A stretch of 64,000 bases of DNA from Lacticaseibacillus kribbianus. Lineage in GTDB: Bacteria > Bacillota > Bacilli > Lactobacillales > Lactobacillaceae. A program made the translations under genes and the position numbers. This document shows positions 10,691-57,174 of this stretch, in pieces. The stretch lies in contig NZ_JAIPUL010000002.1 of the NCBI RefSeq assembly GCF_020180945.1, positions 186,001 to 250,000 on the forward strand. Reading direction: 5' to 3'. Every line of letters starts with the position of its first letter. Position 1 is the stretch's first letter. The notes under the pieces were generated by a model. The model worked only from the letters and a program-made list of their open reading frames with translations, searched no databases and was not told where the DNA came from.

Positions 10691-11430
10691 CTGCCGACCG
10701 GCTAAGTGCGCCTTGCTCCGCTCTGGATCGTCGGGCTACGCAGCGCGACGCGGGAGCGGCTAGCTACGCGCGGCAACTCGAAGCAAAGTGCGCTTCAAGC
10801 TGCCGCGCTAGGCTACCCGTCCCGCTAAGTGCGCCTTGCTCCGCCCTGGTCATCGTCGGGCTCCGCAAGGCAACGCCGGTTCGTCTAGCTAAGGCCAGCA
10901 CACGAAGCAAAGTGCGCTTCATGCGCCAGCCTTACGCTAGCCGACCGGCTAAGTGCGCCTTGCTCCGCCCTGGTCATCGTCGGGCTCCGCAAGGCAACGC
11001 CGGTTCGTCTAGCTAAGGCCAGCACACGAAGCAAAGTGCGCCTTGCTCCGCCCTGGTCATCGTCGGGCTCCGCAAGGCAACGCCGGTTCGTCTAGCTAAG
11101 GCCAGCACACGAAGCAAAGTGCGCTTCATGCGCCAGCCTTATGCTAGCCGACCGGCTAAGTGCGCCTTGCTCCGCCCTAGTCATCGTCGGGCTCCGCAGC
11201 GCGACGCGGGAGCGGCTAGCTACGCTCGGCAGCTCGAAGCAAAGTGCGCTTCAAGCTGTCGAGCTAGGCTACCCGTCCCGCTAAGTGCGCGCTGCTCCGC
11301 CCTGGTCATCGTCGGGCTCCGCAAGGCAACGCCGGTTCGTCTAGCTAAGGCCGGTCACTGGGCCAAAGTGCGGCCCAATGCCCAGCCTTACGCTACCCGA
11401 CCGGCTAAGTGCGCCTTGCTCCGCCCTGGT
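10691..11430 (+). repeat. Tandem array of ~124-bp type-1 hairpin repeat (six units, AAAGTGC strand)
   Basis: No gene is present. The marker CCTTGCTCCGC (or CGCTGCTCCGC) recurs at 10711, 10834, 10958, 11041, 11165, 11290 and 11414, giving units of about 124 bp and one shortened unit of 83 bp. Each full unit contains a long imperfect inverted repeat whose loop is AAAGTGC, with apical stem GAAGC/GCTTC in most units and GGGCC/GGCCC in the last. A second short stem, GCCTTGC/GCAAGGC, brackets a CGTCGGGCTCC loop. The short unit lost the right arm between two AGTGCGC sequences. Confidence 0.9.
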
Positions 11431-14823: not shown

Positions 14824-15060
14824 TGTAGGGCGGAGGCGCGGACGCGCCACTGCCGGAGGTGGAGGGCCGGGGCGAGCCAGCGTGAAATTGCTGTTAGCAG
14901 GCGCTTTTTGCCTGCTTACAGCAAGGGCGGGTCGCAAGACCGGGCTTTGGGCTTGCGAGAGCCCCACGCGTTCCGCCGCCCCGGCCCGGAACCGGAGGTA
15001 GTCGCGCGTCCGCGCCGGAGCCCGGCTCTTCAACATCAATTCGCCGCGCTCCGCCCTCTG
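14824..15060 (+). ncRNA. Type-2 multi-branched structured element, copy 1 (upstream of metG)
   Basis: A 237-bp non-coding stretch forms nested stems. P0: GTAGGGCGGAG (14825-14835) with CTCCGCCCTC (about 15049-15058). P1: GGCGCGGACGCGC (14835-14847) with GCGCGTCCGCGCC (15004-15016). P2: GGGCCGGGGCG with CGCCCCGGCCC. P3: GCGTG with CACGC. P4: hairpin TTGCTGT-TA-GCAGGC / GCCTGC-TT-ACAGCAA. P5: hairpin CGCAAG / CTTGCG with loop ACCGGGCTTTGGG. A second copy on the minus strand at 56960-57174 keeps the same stems with different bases. Whether it is a stable RNA, a leader or a DNA element is unknown. It ends a few bases before the metG -10. No T-box signature is present. Confidence 0.7.
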
Positions 15061-15084: not shown

Positions 15085-17136
<2,052 letters not shown>

Positions 17137-56572: not shown

Positions 56573-56917
56573 ATGGCAGATGGAACGTTGACCATCAGCG
56601 AATTGACCCCCGACGCACAGCACGCTGCGGTGGAGTCGTTCGCTAAGTTTTACTTGGACAAGTACGAGCACAAGGGCCTCGATGTCTTCGCACAGATTGA
56701 CACAACCGGGCACATCGCGGACATCAACCAGTGGCTGGTTGATAACGTGAACTTCCTGCACGAGGAAAAATTGCAGGGGCTGGTTCAGGCACGCAGCGAT
56801 AATTTTATCGCGCTGCTGCGGGTGTTGAAGTCAACCTTCAACGCCAACGGAATCCCAGACATTCCTTGGCAGACCTGGTTCGACCGCGAGATTGCCGCGG
56901 TTGCGCAGGGCCGCTAA
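56573..56917 (+). CDS. Hypothetical helical protein
   Basis: 114 residues from ATG 56573 (GAAAGGGTGG about 12 bases upstream). Soluble, helical pattern with FAKFYLDKYEHKGLDVFAQI in the first half and IPWQTWFDREIAAVAQ at the end. I do not recognise the family. Codon use is less GC-extreme than neighbours. Own promoter and terminator support a real gene. Confidence 0.75.
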   Translation: MADGTLTISELTPDAQHAAVESFAKFYLDKYEHKGLDVFAQIDTTGHIADINQWLVDNVNFLHEEKLQGLVQARSDNFIALLRVLKSTFNANGIPDIPWQTWFDREIAAVAQGR

Positions 56918-56921
56918 TCCC

Positions 56922-56953
56922 AAGCACCTCGCCGACGCGGGGTGCTTTTTTTT
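56922..56953 (+). terminator. Terminator of the 114-residue hypothetical gene
   Basis: AAGCACC-x-CG / CG-x-GGGTGCTT stem followed by eight T residues. Confidence 0.9.
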
Positions 56954-56959
56954 GATACC

Positions 56960-57174
56960 AGAGCGGAGATGCCCGGGTTCCGGCGCGAGCGGGTCGCGAC
57001 TTCCGGCTCCGGGCCAGGGCGGCGGAACGCGTGGGGCTCTCCTGAGCCCAAAGTGCGGTCTCAGGACCCGCCCTTGCTGTAAGCCAGCAAAAATCGCTGG
57101 CTAACAGCAATTTCACGCTGGCTCGCCCTAGCCCTCCGCCTCCAGTCGCGACCCGCTCGAGCCTCCGCCCTACA
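56960..57174 (-). ncRNA. Type-2 multi-branched structured element, copy 2
   Basis: Read on the minus strand this matches the copy upstream of metG. P1: CGAGCGGGTCGCGACT with AGTCGCGACCCGCTCG. P2: GGGCTAGGGCG with CGCCCTGGCCC. P4: TTGCTGT-TA-GCCAGC / GCTGGC-TT-ACAGCAA. P5: CCTGAG / CTCAGG with loop ACCGCACTTTGGG. Bases in P1, P2, P4 and P5 differ from copy 1 but remain paired. The minus strand after the element runs into the T-rich end of the hypothetical gene's terminator. No gene follows on this strand within 500 bases, which argues against a gene-specific leader. Confidence 0.7.

Follow-up and report, generated by a model that had tools for sequence, protein, structure and literature searches.

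The window, by which we mean the whole 64,000-nucleotide stretch of DNA analyzed here, lies in a genome of 2.79 Mb (G000) and carries two copies of an element that is probably a non-autonomous, non-coding mobile repeat of the Lactobacillaceae. On our best reading the element is similar in kind to the EFAR repeats of enterococci, and the folded single strand is the feature under selection. It reads as non-autonomous and mobile because its copy number jumps between relatives, its sites are filled in one genome and empty in another, copies are found on plasmids, a few copies have terminal inverted repeats, and neighboring copies form head-to-head pairs. The earlier note on this DNA had proposed a structured RNA; taken as a riboswitch or a comparable regulator, this found no support: the high copy number, the lineage-specific expansion, the placement at gene 3′ ends, the head-to-head pairs and the interchangeable hairpins do not look like a riboswitch-type regulator, and we file the element as a structured miniature mobile repeat rather than as a new RNA class. 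Several food and gut lactobacilli carry tens of copies of the repeat, which Rfam 15 does not contain and which matters for transcript ends, terminators and antisense transcription at many genes of bacteria used as starters or probiotics. Its hundreds of copies, together with the comparisons of close species, make a test set for the recognition and spread of folded single strands and for recombination between dispersed repeats.

Two Copies of a Y-Shaped Element in the Window

The alignable core of copy 1 spans positions 14825-15025 on the plus strand (201 nt; 221.8 bits with the covariance model R1) and lies upstream of a metG-like gene at 15157-17136 (plus strand); that of copy 2 spans 56973-57173 on the minus strand (201 nt; 222.8 bits with R1). 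As a single strand the core folds into a Y, in which a long stem, P1, runs into an inner stem, P2, and a junction leads to two hairpins, P3 and P4. In copy 1 the consensus structure and its covariation place the 5′ strand of P1 at 14828-14877 and the 3′ strand at 14975-15023; three symmetric GGA/GGA internal loops interrupt this stem, and the junction consists of AGCCAGCG, GTGAAATT and GTTCC. Hairpin P3 (TTGCTGTTAGC...GCTTACAGCAA) occupies 14888-14924, with 99.8% of cells paired, and P4 (GGGC...CGCAAG...CTTGCG...GCCC) occupies 14925-14964, with 100% of cells paired. By consensus structure and comparison with copy 1, the corresponding hairpins of copy 2 are at 57074-57110 (P3) and 57034-57073 (P4) on the minus strand. 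A terminator-like hairpin followed by a T-run, with approximate bounds of 56921-56954 (plus strand) set by eye, stands between the stop of the gene at 56573-56917 (plus strand) and the 3′ end of copy 2. Across the family as a whole the core measures about 150-210 nt. A different short repeat, CGCAACGCGGGNGCGGCTAGC, is found 10 times in the window at up to 3 mismatches, against 0.12 expected (positions 10744, 11200, 14663, 24644, 30243, 30367, 30492, 32188, 32430 and 53759); sequence like it is also seen in the flanks of several cores, and it may be the first of the elements that the earlier note had numbered.

Without gaps the two cores are identical at 165 of 201 positions. Among the 71 pairs of the consensus, 52 do not differ, 14 have changed on both sides with pairing kept, two carry one-sided changes that still pair, and three differ otherwise, and there are differences at 3 of the 59 unpaired positions. 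All the stems named in the earlier note were found with the partners it had given them, paired despite their differences in sequence, and its claim that the single-stranded parts are conserved was likewise borne out. The fold energy lies far below that of dinucleotide shuffles, with z scores of -7.7 and -9.0 for two window stretches (200 shuffles each).

The Repeat Is Abundant in the Genome of the Window

With copy 1 as query, BLAST returned at least 46 matches in G000, at least 40 of them of good length. The model R1, built from 31 G000 copies (alignment A1), matched 122 places, and 79 of these are full cores scoring at least 133 bits; the 43 weaker rows, which we left out, are mostly opposite-strand mirror hits of the same palindromes, with four elsewhere at 31-65 bits. 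The two copies reported earlier are thus both in place, but the number for the genome is 79. Here and in the other genomes the copy counts are lower bounds, and the E-values of the models are rough.

The element is short, non-coding, multicopy and dispersed, as a miniature inverted-repeat transposable element (MITE) is, and all 79 cores are intergenic save for small overlaps at gene ends. Core length is 199-203 nt in 70 of the 79 copies (range 194-218). Pairwise identity has a mean of 78.5% and a maximum of 89.6%; since no two of the 79 copies are more than 90% identical, no recent insertion is evident in G000. Terminal inverted repeats, sought under loose mismatch limits and without a chance control, flank both ends of three of the 79 copies and the 3′ end alone of four more, and they are also present in one full-length copy of the closest relative, G010.

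Compensatory Change Maintains the Folded Strand

Compensatory change preserves the fold within one genome, within the Lacticaseibacillus casei group and between genera. In A1, double changes are seen at 34 of 71 pairs against a shuffle mean of 20.2, a count that none of 500 shuffles reached, and 97.1% of the cells pair, a value that falls to 35-44% when the partners are slid by one to three columns. Over all 79 copies in G000, 564 cells are doubly changed and paired and 191 are singly broken, against 157 and 715 with shuffled partners. Covariation was found at 42 of 58 pairs in alignment A4, and at 55 of 58 in alignment A5 (131 copies from several genera, mostly Companilactobacillus and Levilactobacillus with some Pediococcus, Schleiferilactobacillus and Lacticaseibacillus), where 96.3% of cells pair; 500 shuffles never reached either value. 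Further copies with broken and uncompensated stems had been named in advance as evidence that would speak against a fold, and the many additional copies mostly keep their stems.

The three internal loops of P1 differ in how often they are closed. Loop b is GGA/GGA in 57 of 76 copies and fully paired in none. For loop a, 52 of 79 copies have GGA/GGA, five are fully paired and four pair at two of three positions. Loop c has GGA/GGA in 26 of 78 copies, and in 20 of the 78 it is closed completely, by seven different triplets; one of three positions pairs in 28 copies and two of three in a single copy. Because loop c is nearly without two-of-three states, it gives a strong hint that selection acts on the folded strand rather than on the double-stranded sequence.

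In the stem cells of the plus strand, GT exceeds AC by 181:85 in G000, by 96:42 in the casei group and by 211:94 in the set from named genomes; no p-value is attached to this bias because the copies are related. As the strand symmetry of mutation would make GT and AC about equal without selection, the plus strand of the element is the likelier folded strand. The earlier proposal of a conserved RNA fold accordingly stands as to the fold and its compensatory changes but not as to RNA, since single-stranded DNA would give the same bias.

A reading at the level of DNA only would see in these copies palindromes at gene ends, kept perfect by template switching or by a DNA-binding role (in supercoiling or recombination), with no selected fold. 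The copies are indeed palindromic on both strands, as the mirror hits of R1 illustrate, and their intergenic placement at gene ends is also that of REP/BIME repeats. The mismatched GGA/GGA loops and the unpaired junction, however, are still there in many copies and in other genera, although template switching would tend to remove them, and a strand bias in wobble pairs would not be expected; we regard this reading as very improbable.

Selection at every G000 locus was also considered and rejected. Among the pair states private to one copy in G000, 65 are singly broken, 12 wobble, 31 doubly compensated and 14 doubly broken; these states look partly like decay and speak against strong constraint on every copy.

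Distribution Across the Lactobacillaceae

R1 matched 18 of 60 genomes, all of one genus. That the element is restricted to this genus was rejected once a pattern scan and a broader model, R3, had shown the poor reach of R1 and the thin sampling. The pattern scan of named genomes returned at least 120 stretches, and the 80 listed are all from Lactobacillaceae: Companilactobacillus, Levilactobacillus, Pediococcus, Schleiferilactobacillus, Secundilactobacillus, Lacticaseibacillus and metagenome-assembled genomes of uncultured Lactobacillus sp. The search of Lactobacillaceae genomes suggested in the earlier note was carried out with R3, built from 131 copies, which matched at least 78 of 251 sampled genomes in at least 14 of 40 genera, with up to 11 candidate places scored in each genome. 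Two loci of one genome (L417 and L418 in G102) hold versions of 207-209 nt with a long extra arm in the P3 region.

In a draw from the whole order, R3 matched 8 of 198 genomes, four of them in one other family of Lactobacillales with best scores of 30.9-39 bits. Seven copies from these four genomes measure 166-176 nt and have CGGAG-like motifs near their ends, a CATG-AAA-like junction and a P4 of the type TTTTGAGAC...GGCTCAAAA; we take them as putative distant relatives.

Two plasmids of L. paracasei and two of Levilactobacillus brevis have partial matches (41-68% of the query), each beside the end of an antisense gene. Plasmids gave no match to window copy 1 or to a distant copy from the other family, and phage records none to the one query tried. 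On the mobilizable L. brevis plasmids (L161 and L162) the element stands at the end of an S8 serine peptidase gene, and on one L. brevis plasmid it overlaps the end of an annotated peptidylprolyl isomerase gene. The element on these plasmids, outside Lacticaseibacillus, may have travelled with the protease genes.

Gain, Loss and Exchange Between Close Relatives

The 79 copies of G000 face five full copies and one weak one in its closest relative, G010, and the element is expanded in the G000 lineage. Five other genomes of the genus have 42 (G005), 51 (L. zeae, G009), 18, 53 (G022) and 14 (G027) matches. Two of the five full copies of G010 are at sites that are occupied in G000, and there the cores look, by eye, more different than the adjoining genes.

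Sites occupied in one relative and empty in another, as is expected of a MITE, are seen at metG and in comparisons of L. zeae with G005 and G028. Alone among 30 genomes of the genus, G000 has a strong copy at the metG site (221.8 bits with R1, 83.9 bits with R3), and the nearest relatives G010 (MetG 97% identical) and G001 gave no match there at E up to 1. Weak R1 matches upstream of metG in G012 (34.3 bits), G027 (24.9) and G006 (18.8) are not repeated by R3, which has a 45-bit copy downstream of metG in G019; from their sequences, diverged older copies at the metG site are possible in up to three relatives. The weak matches in G012 (L138:3554-3732, minus strand) and G006 (L135:3596-3693, minus strand) are possibly old copies or another palindrome with GGAG motifs. 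The metG gene itself is in two pieces in two assemblies: in G018 (L157, C2:287908-289904; assembly 91% complete) an in-frame TGA separates parts whose identity to the window protein is 84% and 63%, and the second case is in G024 (C6:5258-7229, partly L158; 84% complete).

Five L. zeae sites were compared by eye with G005 and G028. At C62:80072 both G005 and G028 carry a native terminator, in whose place L. zeae carries the element and a hairpin belonging to it. At C88:10822 L. zeae holds a full copy and G028 a truncated one, and in G005 the site is empty and has a terminator. At C52:30824 the copy is internally deleted in G028. By eye, two and perhaps three of the five sites have a native terminator in the empty relative that the occupied genome lacks or retains by half, and no target-site duplication was recognized at any of the five.

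G005 and L. zeae have 18 sites in common by both flanks (37 and 43 copies examined, from 42 and 51 found). At nine of these the cores are identical or differ at up to six places, and four of the nine are uninformative because the flanks are nearly identical too. The most telling site has a core matching at 165 of 166 positions between flanks matching at 80 of 101 and 58 of 81; a near-frozen core within diverged flanks suggests a function in place that a purely selfish element would not need. At the other nine sites parts of the core have been replaced, and just two of them have close flanks on both sides: at G005:881994 both inner hairpins are of another type (flanks 99/101 and 76/89), and at G005:2131789 the 3′ junction differs (flanks 99/100 and 79/81). 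For the remaining seven, separate insertion or replacement of a longer segment is possible because one or both intergenic flanks have diverged as well.

The inner hairpins come in a few types that combine almost freely, as expected from recombination between dispersed copies; types were assigned by a simple script to 75 of 93 casei-type cores. Among the typed G005-L. zeae pairs, 5 of 14 differ in the type of P3 or P4 and two more in the junction only. A junction variant in which a longer TCTAGCTTCGC stretch replaces GTTCCAGCC occurs in 25 of the 75 typed cores (L239, L243, L247 and others) with several hairpin types. On L. zeae contig C64 the locus pairs L192/L221, L187/L225 and L258/L245 have flanks 100% identical to those in G005, other common loci being at 89-99%; to judge from this identity, the segment looks as if it had recently been exchanged between the two.

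Copies Form Short-Range Head-to-Head Pairs

Among 61 pairs of cores spaced by less than 700 nt, 56 are head to head, five tandem and none tail to tail; beyond 700 nt the bias is gone (three head to head, nine tail to tail and 12 tandem). This count comes from 115 of 120 fetched stretches and leaves aside 8 of 131 and 4 of 67 match rows that were cut, partial or from four single-copy Pediococcus loci. Six of the seven G000 pairs closer than 1.5 kb are head to head, and the spacing of head-to-head cores can be as small as 18-55 nt. Where genes were called on both sides, 29 of 33 head-to-head pairs have genes of the same strand on either side; the pairing therefore does not come down to one element for each of two convergent genes. 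In one set of loci a single head-to-head pair was 700-7000 nt apart, and the genes between its cores look by eye like ordinary chromosomal ones.

Pairs made of two distinct kinds of end were considered and rejected. In the single-species sets 16 of 18 head-to-head pairs combine cores from two different clusters, as do 18 of 23 with a mixed-species set added; random re-pairings reached the observed mean in 112, 110, 801, 692 and 192 of 2000 trials, and pooled clustering gave no support, leaving heteromeric pairs as a hint only.

Gene Context and Rival Roles

Gene context was read with a simple codon-based gene caller of our own. It is mixed and mostly that of gene 3′ ends, not a 5′-UTR position before one class of gene. 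A T-box or other metG leader was rejected on this account, as the copies adjoin many different genes and no copy stands upstream of metG in G010 or G001, the closest relatives. The gene on the 3′ side of the core is commonly antisense to it (55 of 79 copies in G000, 61 of 92 casei-type copies and 56 of 101 in other genera), and in G000 the stop of that antisense gene is at most 25 nt away in 31 of the 55 cases. Few copies lie between divergent genes (5 of 79, 1 of 90 and 4 of 101, both genes called).

The main rival to a mobile repeat arises from this placement. In it the element would be a structural part of mRNA 3′ ends, its reverse complement following the stop of the antisense gene and preceding the terminator, where it would act as a stabilizer, an RNase III site or an insulator and be kept by selection at each locus. 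Besides the antisense neighbors, a terminator-like hairpin (A-run before, T-run after) about 45 nt upstream of many among the 41 L. zeae cores listed, seen by eye, would suit such a role, as would the near-frozen core described above. The wobble bias, however, favors the other strand in all three sets; both neighboring genes run with the core in 19 of 79, 30 of 93 and 41 of 101 copies, and there the complement of the core is in neither neighbor's 3′ UTR; and head-to-head pairs are mostly between same-strand genes. The strand bias and the same-strand contexts speak against this as the primary role, to which we give a small but real chance.

Alternatively, the copies could be independent small RNA genes, each transcribed from a promoter 5′ of the core into an RNA that folds into the Y and acts in trans. 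At least 50 nt without a called gene lie 5′ of all 79 G000 cores, the wobble bias is on the plus strand and the unpaired letters of the junction are conserved, all of which would fit. Against this, an ungapped profile of the 5′ flanks shows no conserved motif save CCACTgT, on which ground a promoter of the element's own was rejected; the casei group has its terminator-like hairpin on the 5′ side; and head-to-head cores 18-55 nt apart leave little room for two promoters. Small RNA genes are, to our mind, an improbable account. A published small-RNA survey of L. casei BL23 lists 307 small RNAs (PMC8220740).

A bias of the copies relative to replication was rejected as well, there being at most a weak tendency over the two chromosome halves: plus/minus counts for the first and second half are 9/5 and 10/14 in G005 (38 of 42 copies), 9/4 and 14/11 in G022 (38 of 53) and 5/0 and 3/6 in G027 (14 of 14).

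A Possible Mode of Spread

We return to the preferred reading of a non-autonomous mobile repeat. Selection on the fold implies at least one step that depends on a folded single strand, and a trans-acting mobilizing protein would presumably recognize the Y-shaped strand. Terminator stem-loops, or places next to them, would be the sites of insertion, which in the L. casei group would bring a replacement terminator hairpin; insertions would survive best at gene ends, and later recombination between copies would shuffle their hairpins.

The searches for a mobilizing partner found none. G000 yielded no candidate for PF00078 (RVT_1, reverse transcriptase), whereby a retroelement or group II intron was rejected, and none for PF01797 (Y1_Tnp; RAYT), whereby a RAYT/REPIN system was. 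A parent insertion sequence with the same terminal repeat was set aside too, since a terminal-repeat search of G000 gave 18 matches, as many as the reversed control. A more specific and doubtful proposal is that the Y strand, as RNA or single-stranded DNA, serves as a recognition or guide structure for a mobilization system that uses neither a reverse transcriptase nor a Y1 transposase, its inner hairpins being exchangeable specificity modules; if this were true, the two hairpins would be specificity modules shuffled between dispersed copies.

Relation to Known Repeats and RNA Families

EFAR repeats, first described in 2007, are assembled from interchangeable sequence types and insert into stem-loop targets, losing most of the target; Efa-1 is the EFAR of Enterococcus faecalis. 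The Lactobacillaceae element resembles them in being intergenic, multicopy and of similar size, its interchangeable P3 and P4 types fit their modular make-up and its terminator sites would fit their stem-loop targets. The weak R3 matches in four genomes of another Lactobacillales family, with a similar P4, are a further point of likeness. It differs in forming one Y with a long closing stem, in its short-range head-to-head pairs and in its range over at least 14 genera of Lactobacillaceae. Compared by description, the size, the complexity of the fold, the modules and the apparent stem-loop targets make common descent with EFAR plausible. EFAR is counted among the MITEs (PMC3733652), and Efa-1 is given as 163 nt long, with 65 copies and a pair of adjacent stem-loops (PMC2267715).

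Similarity to MRSC-65-2 was likewise judged by description. MRSC-65-2 is a covarying repeat, often with dozens of copies per genome and a repeated CCGG-containing motif; it is a candidate mobile element or repeat that may act as DNA, and is a single long stem found in diverse phyla (PMC11109978). The element described here shares the covariation, the dozens of copies and a CCGG-containing motif, but has two inner hairpins and a conserved junction. REPINs and REP sequences with their RAYT are also palindromic intergenic repeats with inverted pairs, at a size of 20-40 against a core of 150-210 nt here and with a Y1 transposase, of which none was found in G000. Classical MITEs (NEMIS, RUP, BOX, ERIC) are similarly short, non-coding and intergenic, and some copies of our element have terminal inverted repeats as they do, whereas its deep covariation, interchangeable hairpins, few terminal repeats and lack of a detected parent insertion sequence set it apart. 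Omega RNA, bridge RNA and group II intron RNA are likewise large structured sequences carried by mobile elements, and the present element differs from them in having no Rfam hit and no reverse transcriptase in G000.

The earlier note had recognized no known RNA family in the element, and we agree: Rfam 15 gave no match at or above gathering in the window or in nine loci from other genera, and below the threshold no credible weak match at the element. Searches of the published literature, most subscription papers lying outside them, returned no description of this repeat family. Near one core in G001 (L101:1543-1908, minus strand) there is a match resembling the cspA thermoregulator, at 70.6 bits against a gathering threshold of 78 (E 2e-16).
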